Assembly: GCA_013360745.1 (NCBI GenBank)
Contig: JABWBA010000025.1
Location: 1-43,128, forward strand
DNA length: 43,128 bases
Reading direction: 5' to 3'
DNA from: Chthonomonadales bacterium
Lineage (GTDB): Bacteria > Armatimonadota > Chthonomonadetes > Chthonomonadales > CAJBBX01
The translations under genes were made by a program, and so were the position numbers. Of this stretch, positions 3,880 to 35,101 are shown piece after piece. Under the pieces are notes generated by a model that worked only from the letters and a program-made list of their open reading frames with translations, made no database searches and was not told the origin of the DNA. Position 1 is the first letter of the stretch, and every line of letters begins with the position of its first letter.

Positions 3880-5322
3880 CTAACGCTCGAGCCGTAGACC
3901 GATGGTAGGCGTTGCATGCCGCAGCCATCCATCGACGCCAACCCAGAGCGAGAAGTCGCTGTTCAACTTGATAAACGCCCGGGAGTCTACCTGCAACTGA
4001 TTGGGATTATGGGCGTCAAGCCGGAGCTGCACTCCGTAGGGCAAGGGTGTATCGAGGCCCACACCGAGCTTGGACGCATACAGCCCGTATCGGAACGCGC
4101 CGAGGCCTGTTCGTGTCTCGTACTGGGCTGTCAACTTGTTCGTCTCAGCCAGATCATAGATGCCAAGATGGAATGCGTTGTTGCCCATCGGAAATCGGAG
4201 CCCAATGTTGGATCGAAAGTACGGGTGTGAGCTCCTTCCTCCCATTTCGATACTCAGGCCAGGTTGGCCAATCCCAAAACTCGGTCGCGTACTCGAGGAA
4301 CCCAATCGATCGACCAGCCGTGATACATCCTCCGCAACTTTCTTACCCGAGGCCGTGGCATCACGCACGGACGCAAGGGTCGTTTTGAGATCGCTCTGGA
4401 CCTCGGCATCACCCAGGAGCGCATGGATATCCGACGCAACCTGATTGAACCGCGCGATCGTCGCCCTGGTTAGCTCGAGCGTCTCCTGCAACGACTGCTG
4501 CAACCGCGGATTGTTGACCTGTTCGGACAGCCTGCTCACTAGACTCCGCGCAGCATCCACCGTATCCGTAAAACGCTGAAGAAGATCAAACAGGCCCGTC
4601 ATCAGATCGTCCACGCGGCCCCCGCTGCGAGCCATCAGCGATTCGAGCTCAGTGCCGAATGATACCGTTGTCCGACGAGCCTGACTTGAGATCACCTGCA
4701 GATCACGAAGCGATGATCGAAGCGTACGCTCTATCTGAGGATCCGATGCGAGATGTCGTGCGCGATTCGAGACCACCCCGAAATCCCCCATCATCACCTC
4801 GGTCCGTTTGAGTATACCCTCGATGTGCTCCATCGATCGATTGAGCCGCGGCGTCATCGCCTCCATCGCTGTGGAGAACTGCTTCACAACACGATCGGTT
4901 TCGGGCGATATCTGCGACAACATGCTCTCCGGATCAGCGCCTCTGTAGGTTCTGCCGGCCTTCATCATCACGGATGAGCGCCCCGGCGCCACCTCGATCT
5001 GCGGACTGGATACCAGAAGGCCCGTCGTGATCATGACGCGGGAGTCCACCGGGATACCGCTTTCGTATTTTGACTGCAGTCGCAGCGTTACGATCGGCTG
5101 TCGCGTCCGCAGGTCGAGTTCAATATCCTTCACCTCCCCGATCTTGACCCCATTCATCAGGACTGGAGCCTGAATCTGCAGCCCTCTGGTATCCGTGAAT
5201 CGGATCTTCAACGGGTAGGTGTTCCAGTCCCAATGGGCAAGATAGGACCATAAAACGGCAAGCATCACGCCGCTAACGAGGATCGTTATTCCGACTTTTT
5301 GCGCAGTACGCCGTTCGTTCAT
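3880..5322 (-). CDS. mlaD: MlaD/MCE-domain lipid transporter with long helical linker and beta-rich C-terminal domain
   Basis: MCE proteins form hexameric rings that carry phospholipids between inner and outer membrane. I place the start at ATG 5322, which overlaps the mlaF stop by ATGA; the frame is open to 5409 but those residues look unlike the family. The 480-residue product has an inner-membrane helix (about 10-29), an MCE domain (about 36-118, with 'TDTRGLQIQAPVLMNGVKIG'), a long helical region (about 135-342), and a final ~130 residues of alternating polar/hydrophobic strands rich in aromatics (about 348-480). E. coli MlaD is under 200 residues. The layout matches the single-protein transenvelope bridge described for Veillonella MlaD, where the C-terminus is an outer-membrane beta-barrel. 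That reading is inference here, and the last residue is Arg rather than an aromatic. Confidence 0.88.
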   Translation of the reverse strand: MNERRTAQKVGITILVSGVMLAVLWSYLAHWDWNTYPLKIRFTDTRGLQIQAPVLMNGVKIGEVKDIELDLRTRQPIVTLRLQSKYESGIPVDSRVMITTGLLVSSPQIEVAPGRSSVMMKAGRTYRGADPESMLSQISPETDRVVKQFSTAMEAMTPRLNRSMEHIEGILKRTEVMMGDFGVVSNRARHLASDPQIERTLRSSLRDLQVISSQARRTTVSFGTELESLMARSGGRVDDLMTGLFDLLQRFTDTVDAARSLVSRLSEQVNNPRLQQSLQETLELTRATIARFNQVASDIHALLGDAEVQSDLKTTLASVRDATASGKKVAEDVSRLVDRLGSSSTRPSFGIGQPGLSIEMGGRSSHPYFRSNIGLRFPMGNNAFHLGIYDLAETNKLTAQYETRTGLGAFRYGLYASKLGVGLDTPLPYGVQLRLDAHNPNQLQVDSRAFIKLNSDFSLWVGVDGWLRHATPTIGLRLER

Positions 5323-6928: not shown

Positions 6929-6957
6929 ATTATACTGAGGCATCCCTCGGGTGTCAA
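6929..6957 (-). promoter_or_regulatory. Perfect-consensus sigma70 promoter of the mla operon (leaderless type)
   Basis: TTGACA (6952-6957) and TATAAT (6929-6934) on the minus strand are separated by exactly 17 bp, a full match to both consensus hexamers. Six bases separate the -10 from GTG 6922, so transcription should begin at or next to that start codon. No ribosome site is available in the transcript. It probably drives mlaE-mlaF-mlaD and perhaps rplI-dnaB beyond. Confidence 0.85.
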
Positions 6958-7007
6958 CGAGACCACCTTGTGGATCAGGGAGGAGAGCTCGGGAGGAATC
7001 GGCGCGT

Positions 7008-7030
7008 GCGCCGGCGAATCGATCCGGCGC
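7008..7030. repeat. GC-rich inverted repeat in the mlaE/DUF6754 divergent region
   Basis: GCGCCGG (7008-7014) and CCGGCGC (7024-7030) form a perfect 7-bp stem with a 9-nt loop. A second palindrome, GGCGC-gt-GCGCC, overlaps it at 7001-7012. They lie about midway between the divergent starts at 6922 and 7089. A regulator-binding site or a structured leader for the plus-strand cluster are both possible. No clear plus-strand promoter was found. Confidence 0.35.
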
Positions 7031-7088
7031 ACTGGTCGACCTTGCGGCATTCGGTTCCGCTGGCACGACCGGGTACGCAGGAGTCCGT

Positions 7089-7877
7089 ATGGAACACGCA
7101 TCATGGACGGGAGCGATCCTACTCACGCTTTTGTGCGGCGCGATCGGCATGCGGATCGCGACCGCTCGGCGTGGCCGTCCGATCTACATCCGGAGAATCA
7201 CGGGGCTCGACCATCTGGATGACGCGCTCGGTCGGGCGACGGAGATGGGCCGCCCGATCATCTTCAGCCCGGGGTTCGGCGATCTCGGCCAGATGTCGAC
7301 GTATGCTGGACTGGCTTGCCTTGAGTATGCGATCCGCCGATCGGCCCGTTTCGGCCTCCATGTGATCGTCCCCGTAGCGGGCGCGACCATGTATCCGGTG
7401 ACACAGGATATCGTCCAGGACGCCTATACGGCAGAGGGTCGCCCAGAACTATACGATCCCAATGATGTCCTCTATCTATCCGGCGATCAGAACGCCTTTG
7501 CGGCCTCGGTAAGCGGCCTCATGGAGCGGAGGCGTGTCGGTGCGGCGTTCTATTTCGGCAACTATGGCTTCGAGTCGCTTCTCATGGCGGAGACGGGTCA
7601 GAGGGTCGGCGCCATCCAGGTGGCTGCTACCGATTCGTTCTTTCAGGTACCGTTTTTCATCGCGGCCTGCGATTACACCATCATCGGTGAGGAACTCTAC
7701 GCGGCGGGCGCCTACCTATCGCGCGACTCAACGATGCTGGGCAGCCTTTCAGGCCAGGACTTCGGCAAAGTAATCGTCGCCGCCTTGCTGATCCTGGGCG
7801 TTGGGGCTTCGCTGGTCGCGACCCTGATGGGCGAAACCGGAAGCTTCAATCCGCTCGTCGGGCTCCTGGGTCGCTGA
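7089..7877 (+). CDS. DUF6754-like membrane protein
   Basis: The start ATG 7089 has AGGAG six bases upstream; the frame is open further upstream but would run into the divergent mla promoter. The 262-residue product has an N-terminal hydrophobic helix (about 8-24), then a basic stretch, a soluble domain of about 190 residues, and a second helix near the C-terminus ('KVIVAALLILGVGASLVATL'). The soluble part contains 'YIRRITGLDHLDDALGRATE', 'RPIIFSPGFGDLG', 'YFGNYGFESLLMAETGQ', 'ACDYTIIGEELYAAGAYLSR' and 'GSLSGQDFGK', which I recognise from DUF6754 proteins of Armatimonadota and related phyla. No catalytic motif or function is known to me. It is first of four closely spaced membrane-protein genes (3 bp to the next). 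Confidence 0.8.
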   Translation: MEHASWTGAILLTLLCGAIGMRIATARRGRPIYIRRITGLDHLDDALGRATEMGRPIIFSPGFGDLGQMSTYAGLACLEYAIRRSARFGLHVIVPVAGATMYPVTQDIVQDAYTAEGRPELYDPNDVLYLSGDQNAFAASVSGLMERRRVGAAFYFGNYGFESLLMAETGQRVGAIQVAATDSFFQVPFFIAACDYTIIGEELYAAGAYLSRDSTMLGSLSGQDFGKVIVAALLILGVGASLVATLMGETGSFNPLVGLLGR

Positions 7878-7880
7878 CGA

Positions 7881-9416
7881 TTGAAGCGCCGCACCATCGT
7901 AACGGCGACGTTCGTCGCCGGCCTCTACTATCTGCTCGTTTTCCTCCTGCCGCCCCGCATTGGCGGCTCGGCTGATGCCGACGGAGCGTCTGGCGCGACT
8001 CTCGTCCATCGCCCAGGATCGGCTCAAGAGACCGTCATCTATACCGGTACGCGCACGGACCGATTCCCTGTCCTCCTTGAAGCGTCGAAAAAGGGAACCG
8101 GACCGAAGCGACTCCTCCTGGCCCCAGCCTTCAACCGACCGGATGATTATCGCGGGGCGATGAATCCGCAGTTTGTTGCGCCCAATCGGCTCTACTACAT
8201 CGGGCTGGGCTGGGACGATCGCATCCCGAGAGTGTGCATGGCCCAACTCTCGGGCGACCGTATTCGGCCATCGGCACGGGCGGTGCTGTCCAACGGGAAG
8301 GCGGGTGAACCGGACGTCTCCGGCATCACCTGGGCCTCGGTTGTGCGCACCGATTCGGGAGCTAATCCCTGGCGCATGTGGTACGTCGGCAGGCTCGGCG
8401 ACGCATCTACGCTGTGTATGGCAGAATCGACCGATGGCCTTCGTTGGCGCAAACGAGGTCCGGTCACTGCGCCGGAGCTCGCGAACGACACCATCCTGAG
8501 CGTAAACGCCCGCGCAACTGCCGATGGGTTCGAACTGTGGCTTCTGATCGAGCACGCAGACGGGCGACGTTCGCTCGTCCTATCGGCCCTGCACGAGGAC
8601 GGCCTCCGATTCCGCGGTCGTCCATATTCCGTAGCGCTGGTTCTGCCTGACGGCACCCATCTGGACGATCTCCGGCTCTCCGAAACGGGGACGATCCTGT
8701 ACGGTAGTCTTCGGAAACAGAGCGAAGCGCCTCGCATCGGGATGCTTCGCGCCGCCCCCAGGAGTGTCTCCGCGCGCAGGCTCGACATCGTCGAACCGAA
8801 CCTGATCGTGCCCGGAGCAAGGCCCCGTTCCACGCTTCTGTACGACGTCCGGGACCAGATCGACAATATCCTCGTCGTGATCGGAGCCTTCGCCGTCGGC
8901 CTCGGCTTGATCGGCTTGGCGCAGGTGCACGGCAAACGGGTCCTGCGAGCCCAATCGGGCTGGCCTGAGAGCGTCACGTTTTTTGTTGCCGCGGTGGCAA
9001 TGGCCTCCTTCGCGGTCTACGCGCGCACTCAACCTGACGCAAAGAACTGGGGCAGCCAGGGGTATCACCTCCTGTTTTACGGCCTGCTGCAGCCGCTTGG
9101 GGCATCGATGTTTTCTCTCCTGGCGGCCTATCTGGTCTCCGCGTCGTACCGCGCGTTCCGCATACGGAGCTTTGAGGGCGGACTGCTCGCCGGCTCGGCC
9201 CTTCTCATCATGCTCGGACAGGTGCCCGTGGGCAACTGGTTGACAGCCAACCTGCCCCCCTATCTCCAGATCCCGCGCATCATGGCCTGGGCGCTCTTCG
9301 TGAACAACACGGCCGTGGTCCGCGCTGTGAACTTCGGCATCTTCGTCGGCGCGCTGGCCACCGCGCTCAGGGTCTGGTTGAGCATGGATCGCGCGAGTAT
9401 GCGGAGCATCGACTGA
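7881..9416 (+). CDS. Membrane protein with extracytoplasmic beta-propeller-like domain and C-terminal multi-TM region
   Basis: The frame begins at TTG 7881, three bases after the preceding stop; no ATG near the start fits better, so the start is tentative. The 511-residue product opens with a signal-anchor (about 6-25), followed by about 300 residues with blade-like repeats. One blade, 'WRMWYVGRLGDASTLCMAES' followed by TDGLRW, resembles the five-bladed propellers of GH32/GH43/GH130-type enzymes, but I see no acidic catalytic triad I can name. From about 330 onward come roughly six transmembrane helices. It may sense or bind a glycan outside the membrane (inference). Its function is unrecognised. 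Gene order and spacing suggest a complex with the DUF6754-like protein and the next two products. Confidence 0.8.
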   Translation: MKRRTIVTATFVAGLYYLLVFLLPPRIGGSADADGASGATLVHRPGSAQETVIYTGTRTDRFPVLLEASKKGTGPKRLLLAPAFNRPDDYRGAMNPQFVAPNRLYYIGLGWDDRIPRVCMAQLSGDRIRPSARAVLSNGKAGEPDVSGITWASVVRTDSGANPWRMWYVGRLGDASTLCMAESTDGLRWRKRGPVTAPELANDTILSVNARATADGFELWLLIEHADGRRSLVLSALHEDGLRFRGRPYSVALVLPDGTHLDDLRLSETGTILYGSLRKQSEAPRIGMLRAAPRSVSARRLDIVEPNLIVPGARPRSTLLYDVRDQIDNILVVIGAFAVGLGLIGLAQVHGKRVLRAQSGWPESVTFFVAAVAMASFAVYARTQPDAKNWGSQGYHLLFYGLLQPLGASMFSLLAAYLVSASYRAFRIRSFEGGLLAGSALLIMLGQVPVGNWLTANLPPYLQIPRIMAWALFVNNTAVVRAVNFGIFVGALATALRVWLSMDRASMRSID

Positions 9417-9417
9417 G

Positions 9418-10257
9418 ATGCGCTGGTTCACCCGGCTCCAGGCGATCGACAACCGTCTCCTCTATTGCCTGCTCGCCATAGCGGTCACCATTCCCGTGTT
9501 CGTCGATGTGCGAATGCCGATCCGACCGACGGTTGAGACGCTCGGCGCCTATCGCGCCGTCGAAAACGTTCCGCCGGGTCGTCTCGTTATGGTGCAGAGC
9601 ACCTGGGACGCCGGCACGATTGGCGAGTGCGAGGGGCAATGCAGGGCCGTCATCGAGCACCTGATGCGACGGAGCCAGCCGTTTGTGATCTGGACGTCCA
9701 ATCCCTCGTCTCCGCCGTTCTACAATCGGATCATCGAGGAGACGGCCCGACGATATGGCCGGCGATACGGCCGCGATTGGGTGGACTTCGGCTACAAAGT
9801 CCCGGGAGGTTCTCTGGCGTTCGGGGTTCAAGCGATGGCGAAGGACTTCCCCGGCTACATGGAGCGCGACGTGCGCGGCACACCGGTGAACCGAATCCCC
9901 GCACTGCGGGGCGTCAAGGACGCCACGGACTTCGACCTCATCATCACCATCGGCTATAACCCCATCGGCGAGTTCATCCAGTTCGTACAGGCAGTCTATG
10001 GCACCCGCGTGGTCTTCGGAATCGCCGCTATCAACTCGACGACGACCTATTCCTACCTCGATTCGAGGCAGATCGTCGGCATGCTGGTCGGGGCCCGGGG
10101 AGGAGCGGAATACGAGGTGCTGGTGGGCCGCCCCGGTCGAGGCGTGCAGATCATCATGGCGCAGAGTTTCGGCCATCTGCTAATCGTAGTATTGATCGTC
10201 ATCGCCAACATTGCCGCAACCGCTCAGCGACGCGCAGAGCGGGGCCAGAGCGTATGA
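9418..10257 (+). CDS. Bitopic membrane protein of unknown function
   Basis: The start ATG 9418 lies one base after the preceding stop and the end overlaps the next gene by ATGA. The 279-residue product has a hydrophobic helix near the N-terminus (about 14-30), a domain of about 210 residues, and a C-terminal helix ('LLIVVLIVIANIAATAQ') followed by Arg. Notable segments are 'FDLIITIGYNPIGEFIQFVQ', 'FGIAAINSTTTYSYLDSRQI' and 'GMLVGARGGAEYE', which look like a conserved core. A Cys pair sits at 'CEGQC'. I do not recognise the family. Context says it belongs with the DUF6754-like membrane cluster. Confidence 0.8.
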   Translation: MRWFTRLQAIDNRLLYCLLAIAVTIPVFVDVRMPIRPTVETLGAYRAVENVPPGRLVMVQSTWDAGTIGECEGQCRAVIEHLMRRSQPFVIWTSNPSSPPFYNRIIEETARRYGRRYGRDWVDFGYKVPGGSLAFGVQAMAKDFPGYMERDVRGTPVNRIPALRGVKDATDFDLIITIGYNPIGEFIQFVQAVYGTRVVFGIAAINSTTTYSYLDSRQIVGMLVGARGGAEYEVLVGRPGRGVQIIMAQSFGHLLIVVLIVIANIAATAQRRAERGQSV

Positions 10258-10949
10258 ACTCCCTGATTCCCCATCCCGTCAGTCCGTTCTCGCTCACCGG
10301 TCTGACCATATGGCTCGGTGCGCTCGCAACCCTCGCGATCCTTTCGTTTCTCTTTCGCGAGAACCGGCTCTATCGCTTCGCTGAGCATACGCTGCTCGGC
10401 CTCGGCATCGGATTTGGCGTCGCAACGACCATCACCGACATCCTCATACCCAAGTGGTGGGCGCCGCTCAGCGAGGGCTGGCAGCAGCGCCACTGGGGCG
10501 CCATCGGAGTTGGGCTCGCAGAGATCATCCTTGGGCTCGCCCTGTACGGCCTGTACCACAAGAAGACGGTCTGGCTATCGCGGGCCGTTCTGGGACTCGT
10601 GATGGGCGCGGGCGCAGGGATGGCCTTCAAAGGGGAGATCAACGACAAGCTTCCGCAGATCATCGCGTCCTTCAAGTCGCCCTACGTGCCCGCATCCCAG
10701 ACGACGATGTTCAACAACACGCCGAGCAACATCGTGTTTATCATTGTGATGCTGAGCGTTCTCTCCTACTTCTTCTTCTCAGCCGACCAGCAGAGGCCGA
10801 CGCTCCGAGTGAGCTCCCGTATCGGACGCATTTTCCTGATGCTCACTTTCGGCATCTTTTTCAGCAACGCGATCATGACCCGTATGAGCGTCTTTATCGA
10901 ACGGATCTGGTTTCTACTTACTGAGTGGCTTCGAATCGGCGTTCCGTGA
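10254..10949 (+). CDS. Polytopic membrane protein of unknown function
   Basis: The start ATG 10254 overlaps the stop of the preceding gene (ATGA), indicating translational coupling. The 231-residue product has about six hydrophobic segments: near 15-35, 43-62, 78-97, 104-122, 158-176 and 186-215. A hydrophilic loop (about 125-156, 'EINDKLPQIIASFKSPYVPA') lies between the fourth and fifth. There is no signal peptide, no transporter signature and no recognised family. As last gene of the four-gene cluster it could be the channel-like or scaffolding member of a complex (inference only). Confidence 0.8.
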   Translation: MNSLIPHPVSPFSLTGLTIWLGALATLAILSFLFRENRLYRFAEHTLLGLGIGFGVATTITDILIPKWWAPLSEGWQQRHWGAIGVGLAEIILGLALYGLYHKKTVWLSRAVLGLVMGAGAGMAFKGEINDKLPQIIASFKSPYVPASQTTMFNNTPSNIVFIIVMLSVLSYFFFSADQQRPTLRVSSRIGRIFLMLTFGIFFSNAIMTRMSVFIERIWFLLTEWLRIGVP

Positions 10950-11060: not shown

Positions 11061-12308
11061 ATGGTACAGCCGAGATTACCGCTTCTCAGCGCGCTCATGC
11101 TGGCGGGCGCGCTGTTGCAAGGCTGCGGAGGAGGCGAGGAAGCCGTGACCACACGTGGACCCCGATCCGCGGATCTCGCCGTCGATTCCAAGCTCGTCAC
11201 CGCGACCAATGACTTCGGCTTCCGGCTCTATCGGGAGCTGGCGGCGACTGAGGGCAACATCTTTTTCTCTCCGGTGAGCATTGAACTGGCCCTCGGCATG
11301 GCGTATAACGGCGCACGAGGCTCGACCCGCGACGCCATGGCCCGCGCTCTCGGCTACGGAGACCTCTCCCTCGATGCCGTTAACGGAGCGAATGCCCAGC
11401 TGCTCCAACTGCTGGCCAACCCGGATCCGAAGGTCGACCTCTATATCGCCAACGCCGTGTGGGCGCGACAGGGCGTGACCTTCGACACGGGCTTCATGGA
11501 GCGCTGCAGAACCAGCTTCCTCGCCGAGCCGTTCACGGTGGATTTCAAGAACGCCGACGCAGCCAACCAGATCAACGCCTGGGTCAAGGGCAAAACGCGG
11601 GATAAGATCAACGAGATCGTCAGCGCAGACGCCATCCGCGAGGCGCTCATGGTCCTGACCAATGCCCTCTACTTCAAGGCCGGCTGGACCGATGCGTTCC
11701 CGCAAGGAGCAACAACAGAGGCCCCGTTCACGACGGGCGACGGCAGCAAGCTGACCGTACCGTTGATGCATCGCTCAGGCTCCTTCGAGTATATGGAGAA
11801 CGAGCAGGTCCAGATGATCCGAATCCCCTATCAGGGTCAGTTCGTCGGCATGACCGTGATCCTGCCAAAGCCCGGGATCACTGTGGCCAGCGTTGCGGAG
11901 AGCCTCAATGGCGAGACGTGGAAGACGTGGTCGAAATCGATGACACCGCAATCCGGACGGCTCGCCCTCCCTCGCTTCAAGACCGACTTCTCCACCTCGC
12001 TGAAACCGGCTCTCTCAGCCCTCGGGATGGGCGTAGCCTTTGATCCATCCCAGGCCGATCTGAACGGAATCCTGCCCCCAGACGCAACGTCCGAACGGGT
12101 CTATATCAGCGATGCTCTCCACAAGACCTATCTATCCGTCGACGAGCAGGGCACCGAAGCGGCCGCGGCGACCGCGGTCATTATCGGGATAACGAGCGTC
12201 CCGGTCGATCGCTTCGAGATGATCGTCAACCGCCCGTTCTTACTAGCCATCACGGATAAGCCGACCGGCGTCGTGCTGTTTCTGGGTTCGATCAGCAAGC
12301 CCCGGTAA
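11061..12308 (+). CDS. Serpin-family protease inhibitor, predicted lipoprotein
   Basis: Serpins trap serine or cysteine proteases by a suicide conformational change. A strong AGGAG site precedes ATG 11061. The 415-residue product begins with a lipoprotein signal ending LLQGC (Cys22), so it is probably anchored in a membrane. The serpin core follows: 'NIFFSPVSIELALGMAYNGA', 'ANAVWARQGV', 'LTNALYFKAGW', 'VTVILPKPG'-like strand and the C-terminal 'NRPFLLAITD' and 'VLFLGSI'. The reactive loop hinge GTEAAAAT (364-371) has the small residues required for inhibitory serpins. Counting from the hinge puts P1-P1' at about Thr378-Ser379, but the segment to 'NRPF' is three residues longer than in alpha-1-antitrypsin, so P1 is uncertain. 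It stands alone on its strand and is convergent with the DUF1080 gene. Confidence 0.95.
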   Translation: MVQPRLPLLSALMLAGALLQGCGGGEEAVTTRGPRSADLAVDSKLVTATNDFGFRLYRELAATEGNIFFSPVSIELALGMAYNGARGSTRDAMARALGYGDLSLDAVNGANAQLLQLLANPDPKVDLYIANAVWARQGVTFDTGFMERCRTSFLAEPFTVDFKNADAANQINAWVKGKTRDKINEIVSADAIREALMVLTNALYFKAGWTDAFPQGATTEAPFTTGDGSKLTVPLMHRSGSFEYMENEQVQMIRIPYQGQFVGMTVILPKPGITVASVAESLNGETWKTWSKSMTPQSGRLALPRFKTDFSTSLKPALSALGMGVAFDPSQADLNGILPPDATSERVYISDALHKTYLSVDEQGTEAAAATAVIIGITSVPVDRFEMIVNRPFLLAITDKPTGVVLFLGSISKPR

Positions 12309-33172: not shown

Positions 33173-35101
33173 CTAGCGTTGCAGCTCGAGCTTGCCGACG
33201 TCCGTCGTTCCTCCGGGTGTATCGATGTATATCGGCAGTGCGGCTCGCGGATCGTTCGTTATCGTAAGCTCACGAATATCTCCTCGACGCGGCGCCTGAA
33301 TCAGATAGAGCAGTCGGTACTGGCCTTCGCGGATACCGTTGAGTTCGAACCTGCCGAGCGCATCCGGACGAGCGCTTCGGATAATCTCGCGCAGGGCGAA
33401 CGGAGCAATCGGACGCCATCTACCGGGCGCCGTCATCGACGCCAGAACCGATGAGCCCGCAGGCGCCAGCGCCGCGCGCGGATCGAGCCCATCGATGGCT
33501 CCAACGATCGTCCCCGCGACACGCCCCTGCAGACCCCTGCGCCGTTCTTCGGCCCGCTCACGCGCTCGCCCAGCCGGCAAGCCGGCATCGGCATACCAGC
33601 GCAGCGCATCGGCGGTATCTCCGGCAAACGCGTATAAATCGCCGATCGGCAACCGCGTATCATCGGTCGGAAACCCAATGACACCGCCGCGCTGGAAGAG
33701 CTTGAAGGCCTCACGACGAACTCTCCGACGATCGGGGCTTCCGGTTGCGATGGCAAGGTCCTCGATCAACAGCCGTAGGAACATCGGTTCGCCAAGATGC
33801 CGGACCGCTTCTGCAGCGGTCTCGACACGCAGCCACGGATCACCATTGAGGCAGGCGCGGTCATAGAGCGCTGCGAATGCGGCAGGCGCCAGGGCAGTGC
33901 GGTAACCCCGGGCCTTGAGATGAGATCGAATGCGCCGAAGATGCGCCGGGTTGAGCGGGATGCCCGAGAACCCATGGGACAAGGTTCGGAGCACACGGCC
34001 CGAACCCGCAGTCGGAAGATACAGCATGATCCCACCGTCTTCGCTCCCGGCTCGTTGCCACCAGGTCGGCTCCAGAGGAACAGAACGTACGAAGTCGGCG
34101 TCGTAGCGAGCGGCAGTGTATCGGGGTAGCCAGACATTCCCCCAAAATGCGAGGCCGATTGCGCCGAGACAGGCCACACAGGATTGGACGGCGCCACGCG
34201 CGCTCCTGCGCCCGAGCCCGATCGCCCCAAGACACAATAGTGCAGCCGCGAAAGCCGCACTCCCCAGCCATGCAAGAGCCGCCGGTCGCCAGGCGCTCTC
34301 ACCGACGCCGCCGAGTAGGCGTACAAGGCGGATCCAGCGCTCTGGAGGCGCCGCCATCAAACCGTACATCGCAACCCAGACGATCAGGCCAAAGAGCGAG
34401 CCGCGAAATAACAGCGAAAGGGCTTCCCGCGCGCGTGGCAACAGATAGTTACCACTGTCGCAGTCACCGACGAAGCCGCTCCGCGCAAGGCTCAACCATA
34501 GACCGGCGCTGACCAGGGCTGTGGACGGCAGGGCGTCGGGAATCCATCGGGGTACAAAGCCGGATACCAGCGCCCAGAGCAGATAGATCACGACGAGAAC
34601 CGGTACAACGGTGACAAAGGCCTTGATCAACGGTGCGGTGTGCATATACGTCCGAACCAGAATCCGGCTGTTCCAATCCACTCCCGTGGACAATCGAAAT
34701 GTCGGATTGATCGCTTTGATCAGGCAATAAGCGCCACAGCCGGCGAAGAACAAGTAGAGCGTGAGCGCGGCGGCCAGCGGCAGACTGCCCAGGGCGGTGA
34801 GCAGACGATAGGTGAACGGGCTCCATAGCAGCGCCGACGGAACAGGCTGTGTATCATCCGGGATCGGCTGGATGTTCAACGGCGACCCATCCCAGAGAAG
34901 CATGGCGCACGTATACTGCGCCAATGGTATAAAGGCCGCACCAATGGCCGCGAAGATCGATACAGCAACGAGGCTGTACAGATCCGCGTTCGACTTCGTC
35001 GGTTGCGCAGGGGGAGCCGTTTCGGCCAGAGCCGCCGTTATCTCGGAGGAACCGGCCCCACCGCTGGCTCGCTCGGCCTCGGTAGTGGAGATCTCCGTCA
35101 C
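33173..35101 (-). CDS. Polytopic membrane protein with soluble C-terminal domain, unknown function
   Basis: GTG 35101 overlaps the stop of the Gfo/Idh/MocA gene (GTGA), so it is probably coupled to it. The 642-residue product starts with a polar Ala/Glu/Thr-rich segment (about 1-37), then about seven hydrophobic segments between 40 and 325. 'FFAGCGAYCLIKAINPTFRL' and 'RSGFVGDCDSGNYLLPRARE' lie in the loops; a Yip1/DUF-like permease fold is possible but not certain. The remaining ~300 residues are soluble: an alpha-helical HEAT/TPR-like part ('ETAAEAVRHLGEPMFLRLLI', 'YAFAGDTADALRWYADAGLP') and an end resembling a carboxypeptidase-regulatory beta-sandwich ('GRFELNGIREGQYRLLYLI'). No function is recognised. 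It may be unrelated to the sugar genes despite the overlap. Confidence 0.85.
   Translation of the reverse strand: MTEISTTEAERASGGAGSSEITAALAETAPPAQPTKSNADLYSLVAVSIFAAIGAAFIPLAQYTCAMLLWDGSPLNIQPIPDDTQPVPSALLWSPFTYRLLTALGSLPLAAALTLYLFFAGCGAYCLIKAINPTFRLSTGVDWNSRILVRTYMHTAPLIKAFVTVVPVLVVIYLLWALVSGFVPRWIPDALPSTALVSAGLWLSLARSGFVGDCDSGNYLLPRAREALSLLFRGSLFGLIVWVAMYGLMAAPPERWIRLVRLLGGVGESAWRPAALAWLGSAAFAAALLCLGAIGLGRRSARGAVQSCVACLGAIGLAFWGNVWLPRYTAARYDADFVRSVPLEPTWWQRAGSEDGGIMLYLPTAGSGRVLRTLSHGFSGIPLNPAHLRRIRSHLKARGYRTALAPAAFAALYDRACLNGDPWLRVETAAEAVRHLGEPMFLRLLIEDLAIATGSPDRRRVRREAFKLFQRGGVIGFPTDDTRLPIGDLYAFAGDTADALRWYADAGLPAGRARERAEERRRGLQGRVAGTIVGAIDGLDPRAALAPAGSSVLASMTAPGRWRPIAPFALREIIRSARPDALGRFELNGIREGQYRLLYLIQAPRRGDIRELTITNDPRAALPIYIDTPGGTTDVGKLELQR

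Follow-up and report, generated by a model that had tools for sequence, protein, structure and literature searches.

The third gene of a compact mla operon in a Chthonomonadales bacterium (Armatimonadota) encodes what is very probably the MlaD of a minimal Veillonella-type lipid transporter, MlaEFD, built from three genes; as a single protein it could, by analogy, link the inner and outer membranes across the whole envelope. The window analysed is a stretch of 43,128 nucleotides from a 3.32 Mb MAG that is ~97% complete, and the features discussed are collected in Table 1. An earlier note on this DNA had described the product of mlaD as an inner-membrane helix followed by a single MCE domain, a helical linker and a beta-rich C-terminus. 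AlphaFold bears out that layout, placing the four parts at residues 3-28, 35-127, 134-340 and 355-479, respectively.

Table 1 Features of the mla operon and of MlaD, with positions in the window
Feature	Position	Strand	Basis or detail
mlaE, permease subunit, 274 aa	6119..6943	(-)	start 6943; PF02405, TIGR00056
mlaF, ATPase subunit, 267 aa	5319..6122	(-)	PF00005 E=8.6e-33; motifs intact
mlaD, long MCE protein, 480 aa	3880..5322	(-)	ATG at 5322, stop 3882-3880
Single inner-membrane helix, MlaD residues 3-28	5239..5316	(-)	AlphaFold helix and hydrophobic run
MCE domain, MlaD residues 34-114	4981..5223	(-)	PF02470 above cut-off
Amphipathic helical linker, MlaD residues 134-340	4303..4923	(-)	putative periplasmic tube wall
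Ten-stranded beta-barrel, MlaD residues 355-480	3883..4260	(-)	probable outer-membrane seat
Last strand TIGLRLER, MlaD residues 473-480, invariant Gly475	3883..3906	(-)	alignment

The operon reads mlaE-mlaF-mlaD, with each start codon overlapping the preceding stop: the mlaE TGA and the mlaF ATG overlap as ATGA, and the mlaF TGA overlaps the mlaD ATG likewise. These overlaps, together with the PF02405 and ABC ATPase matches of the first two products, confirm that mlaD directly follows mlaE and mlaF, as had been proposed. The mlaE product is matched by PF02405 with E=1.2e-65 and by TIGR00056 with E=1.7e-61, and the mlaF product retains Walker A (GLSGSGKTT), signature (LSGGM), Walker B (ILCYDEP) and H-loop (SHD) motifs. 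Its match to the NCBIfam MlaF model (E=3.1e-56) falls below the cut-off of that model, and other ABC ATPases score similarly. On the 3' side of mlaD lie rplI, with L9 domains, and then dnaB; the plus strand of 3880-5322 contains many stops and no long frame. Divergent from the mla operon, four genes at 6951-10949 (+) form a compact unit, the first of which encodes a DUF6754 protein (E=3e-88) and the other three products without a confident family. Beyond them, 11061-12308 (+) encodes what, by eye, is a serpin-like protein with a lipoprotein-like signal, serpins being uncommon in bacteria, and a 642-aa ORF at 33173-35101 (-), which has no Pfam match at E<=1e-5, adjoins a GFO/IDH/MocA oxidoreductase gene.

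At its inner-membrane end MlaD combines a PF02470 (MlaD/MCE) domain (E=1.7e-16, 60.7 bits vs a cut-off of 25.1) with genetic partnership with MlaE and MlaF, and on both counts it belongs to the MlaD/MCE family. In the full-length AlphaFold model, which is a monomer built with 46 phylum sequences, the MCE strands have a pLDDT of about 95, and the model superposes on the MCE core of E. coli MlaD (5uw8) with a Z of 17.2 and an rmsd of 1.5 over 98 residues. The linker of ~205 residues that follows is modelled as helices at residues 134-138, 140-188, 196-232, 238-268, 272-302 and 306-340, with low confidence in the monomer (pLDDT 41-75). In all five long linker helices the hydrophobic moment reaches its maximum at 101-102 degrees per residue, an angle close to that of a coiled-coil heptad, and the moments are far above those of shuffles (p of 0.0005 or less for each helix). 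Amphipathic helices of this kind would be suited to packing together, as a bundle or as a tube, with one side hydrophobic; the calculated length of a straight ~203-residue helix is about 30 nm. Across the phylum the stretch from the MCE domain to the barrel ranges from 184 to 274 residues and the barrel only from 126 to 134, a pattern that would follow from a linker that determines the span and a barrel that serves as an unvarying module.

The C-terminal part of MlaD is predicted to be a complete barrel, with strands at residues 355-363, 369-379, 382-389, 396-405, 408-415, 418-427, 431-438, 444-452, 457-464 and 471-479 (pLDDT 92-97 in the full-length model). Modelling of the C-terminal 135 residues alone returned the identical ten strands, with a pLDDT of 95.0 and a pTM of 0.85. 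Here the analysis departs from the earlier note, which had left room for a short, partial or atypical barrel: the sole atypical feature is the non-aromatic last residue. We also considered that the C-terminus might be a degenerate or partial barrel, or might supply one strand per monomer to a shared barrel as in Mce1, a reading that would accommodate the small size (only about 126 residues) and the missing terminal aromatic and that has a counterpart in the known shared six-strand barrels of mycobacterial Mce1. It appears extremely improbable given ten confidently modelled strands in each monomer, a strand number equal to that of Veillonella MlaD, conserved residues distributed across the strands and a domain length that is near constant.

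Comparison with solved structures using a structural aligner gave OpcA (Z 16.2, rmsd 2.5, 130 residues) and Pla (Z 14.6) as the top matches of the barrel; the designed TMB10 matched at Z 12.6, and the soluble ten-strand barrels DUF3598 (Z 11.8) and nitrobindin (Z 10.8) fell below OpcA and Pla. Outer-membrane barrels were likewise ahead of soluble ones when the full-length model was used. OpcA and Pla/OmpT share with the MlaD barrel ten antiparallel strands; they differ from it in having long extracellular loops and in being stand-alone adhesins or proteases, and identity is ~10%, with no sequence homology found. Foldseek with the barrel returned no match at E<=0.001, its list mixing outer-membrane barrels with lipocalins, and a sequence search of solved structures with the barrel profile found nothing significant. 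Homology of the barrel to TamB was considered because the Pfam TamB model matched weakly in 5 of the 46 homologues (best 2.4e-4), and was dropped since the barrel profile matches neither TamB nor BamA of the same genome. The match to DUF3598 and nitrobindin, the mixed Foldseek list and the non-aromatic C-terminal residue would all be compatible with a different assignment, in which the barrel would act in the periplasm as a soluble domain, lipocalin- or nitrobindin-like, binding a lipid and passing it to an outer-membrane partner, and MlaD itself would not reach the outer membrane. OpcA and Pla, however, outscore the soluble barrels, and the two faces of the strands are distributed in the opposite sense to that of a soluble lipid binder.

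Alternate residues are hydrophobic in all ten strands, and the mean difference between the faces is 1.91 vs 0.84 +/- 0.19 in within-strand shuffles, of which 0/5000 reach the observed value. Over the 46 homologues, charged residues account for 3% of the hydrophobic face, which is thus nearly uncharged, vs 37% of the polar face. Conservation above 60% is seen at 19/46 polar-face positions vs 4/44 hydrophobic-face positions (Fisher p=0.0006), the conserved polar-face positions including Arg370, Asp/Asn372, Gln400, Arg411, Asp424, Asp436, Asp446, Arg448 and several glycines; by mean entropy the polar face is again the more conserved, a difference that is not significant (p=0.10). With inside and outside assigned from these residue patterns rather than from coordinates, a polar conserved interior and a variable hydrophobic exterior are what would be expected of an outer-membrane barrel and the reverse of what a soluble lipid-binding barrel would have. 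The soluble or unclosed C-terminus that had been named beforehand as the contrary outcome was not found, the residue pattern being of the outer-membrane type and the best matches outer-membrane barrels. We therefore regard the soluble periplasmic domain as quite unlikely, and the modelled C-terminus of MlaD as very probably a small outer-membrane barrel. The loops of this barrel, measured between the AlphaFold strands, are 5, 6, 2, 5 and 6 residues for the odd connections and 2, 2, 3 and 4 for the even turns; the tendency of the odd loops to be longer fits a barrel with both ends toward the periplasm.

The C-terminal aromatic of the canonical beta-signal is common in BAM substrates and is not obligatory, and the usual signal carries a Gly plus an aromatic or hydrophobic residue. 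MlaD ends in Arg instead, and in the 46 homologues the final residue is R in 24, K in 5, P in 5, Y in 4, Q in 3, N in 2, F in 2 and E in 1, so that F or Y ends only 6/46. In this genome BamA and TamB both have Phe as their last residue. Gly475 and Leu478 of MlaD occupy beta-signal positions, indicating that the register of the signal is retained but its final aromatic residue is missing. The terminal Arg, on which the earlier note had remarked, is real: judged from the alignment it is a family-wide trait, and a sequencing accident is ruled out.

We searched the genome for the remaining components of the pathway. It encodes one MCE protein, and there was no match to MlaA (PF04333), MlaC (PF05494) or LolA in the genome, each of these searches being positive in the E. 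coli and Caulobacter controls. The proposed Veillonella-type architecture operating without MlaA and MlaC is thus supported, with an outer-membrane-type barrel of ten strands predicted on MlaD and no separate MlaC and MlaA genes found in the genome. MlaA was present in 0/151 genomes of the phylum sample (also counted as 0/116), and for MlaC the same 151 genomes gave one partial match only, below the cut-off; incompleteness of one MAG is therefore no explanation for the absence. As candidates for MlaB we rejected two above-cut-off STAS matches, which sit on other contigs and not in the mla operon and which both carry DSS[AG]LG, presumably the anti-anti-sigma factor motif. Contig C65 groups BamA (Omp85 E=5.2e-38, with POTRA domains), TamB, an OmpH/Skp protein beside BamA, and LpxA, LpxB, LpxC and LpxD, which taken together suggest that the organism is very probably an LPS-type diderm. 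The order on this contig (locus L112, 231-14345) is tamB, a sigma factor gene, bamA, ompH/skp, a gene for a 368-aa unknown protein, lpxD, lpxC, lpxA and lpxB; the sigma factor gene between tamB and bamA is sigma-70-like, and its end overlaps the start of the longest bamA frame.

The closest described counterpart is MlaD of V. parvula, a protein of 419 residues in which a TM helix and an MCE domain are followed by a helical stretch of about 150 residues and by a barrel of ten strands (Grasekamp et al. 2023, PMC10665443), and which by fractionation is found in both membranes (PMC10665443). The likeness lies in this published layout rather than in a comparison of barrel sequences: common to both are the TM helix, one MCE domain, a long helical linker and a ten-stranded C-terminal barrel, an mlaE-mlaF-mlaD operon without mlaB, the absence of MlaA and MlaC, and an LPS-type diderm host outside Proteobacteria with BamA and TamB. 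The protein described here is longer (480 aa vs 419), with a linker of about 205-228 vs about 150 residues, and its operon is followed by rplI-dnaB rather than by the tolC-tamB of Veillonella, tamB-bamA-lpx lying on another contig. MlaD of E. coli, Acinetobacter and Pseudomonas (MlaFEDB) shares the inner-membrane helix, the MCE core and the MlaE and MlaF partners, but at about 150-230 aa has no long linker or barrel and works with MlaC and MlaA, undetected here, where MlaB is also outside the operon. The system is accordingly not the six-component E. coli type, as it has no MlaA or MlaC and its MlaD is 480 aa vs about 183. Mce1A-F, PqiB and LetB resemble MlaD in that their MCE ring or rings are continued by a periplasm-spanning tunnel; mycobacterial Mce1, however, is a heterohexamer without complete barrels, and E. 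coli PqiB and LetB have several MCE domains and no outer-membrane barrel.

From Veillonella and E. coli we infer the hexamer and its tube, and likewise membrane insertion, transport and the direction of lipid movement. Six MlaD subunits would place an MCE ring on the MlaE2F2 ABC transporter in the inner membrane, and their six linkers would form a periplasm-crossing tube with a hydrophobic lining. BamA would insert the barrels, which would fasten the far end of the tube to the outer membrane, and ATP hydrolysis by MlaF would power the movement of glycerophospholipid, most likely in the retrograde direction (outer to inner membrane) with TamB opposing. Since the putative lumen of the barrel is charged, polar and conserved, lipids probably do not cross any single barrel; a role of the barrels as anchors or docking elements is more likely than one as lipid channels, and lipids may enter the tube between or beneath them. 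Phylum-wide alignment thus informs the mechanism, a charged conserved face opposite a hydrophobic one favouring an anchor over a channel, as does the fixed length of the barrel vs the varying linker. The same conserved charged face, the variable linker and near-fixed barrel, and the judgement that the Veillonella barrel is too narrow for lipid, its role being left open (Grasekamp et al., PMC10665443), could also be read to mean that the barrel is a mere tether and MlaD mainly a membrane spacer, with lipids moved via other factors. This is very unlikely, as the mlaD operon also encodes a permease together with an ATPase whose motifs are intact, and as Veillonella mla mutants have lipid-asymmetry phenotypes that are suppressed by tamB mutations. 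Within the preferred reading of MlaD as an envelope-spanning transporter subunit, one specific version, which we put forward tentatively and consider unlikely, has six outer-membrane barrels with sealed, charged lumens ringing the end of the MCE tube, inserted by a non-canonical C-terminal signal and gating lipid entry between, not through, the barrels. If true, a ring of six barrels round a single MCE tube would be an arrangement undescribed for any outer-membrane complex.

The architecture is widespread in Armatimonadota. With the full-length protein as query, one MlaD of the same architecture was found in 29/31 genomes of the order, and the MlaD profile matched 176/179 good-quality genomes of the phylum sample, the matches extending as far as the barrel end in most listed cases. 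The order mlaE-mlaF-mlaD-rplI-dnaB(-purD) was kept in nearly all loci examined, and this spread, with the conserved gene order, argues against chance. The named relatives in the barrel scan were Chthonomonadales/Armatimonadetes genomes; the single-protein scan of genome_contigs found no relative and the barrel scan of viral_contigs no match. The arrangement itself was already published in 2023 for Veillonella (PMC10665443), and that paper describes long MlaD with a barrel as widespread among diderm Terrabacteria, finds most long MlaD proteins in its survey to be without a barrel and leaves Armatimonadota unnamed in its main text; our literature search found no paper joining MlaD/MCE barrels with Armatimonadota. 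Its conservation through another phylum, one with few cultured members, lends independent support to the idea that many diderms beyond Proteobacteria move phospholipids by a single envelope-spanning MlaD in place of the E. coli MlaA-MlaC shuttle. The position of the operon is also characteristic, mlaEFD being fixed beside rplI-dnaB-purD in Armatimonadota (loci L002-L029, L081-L105) vs tolC-tamB in Negativicutes.
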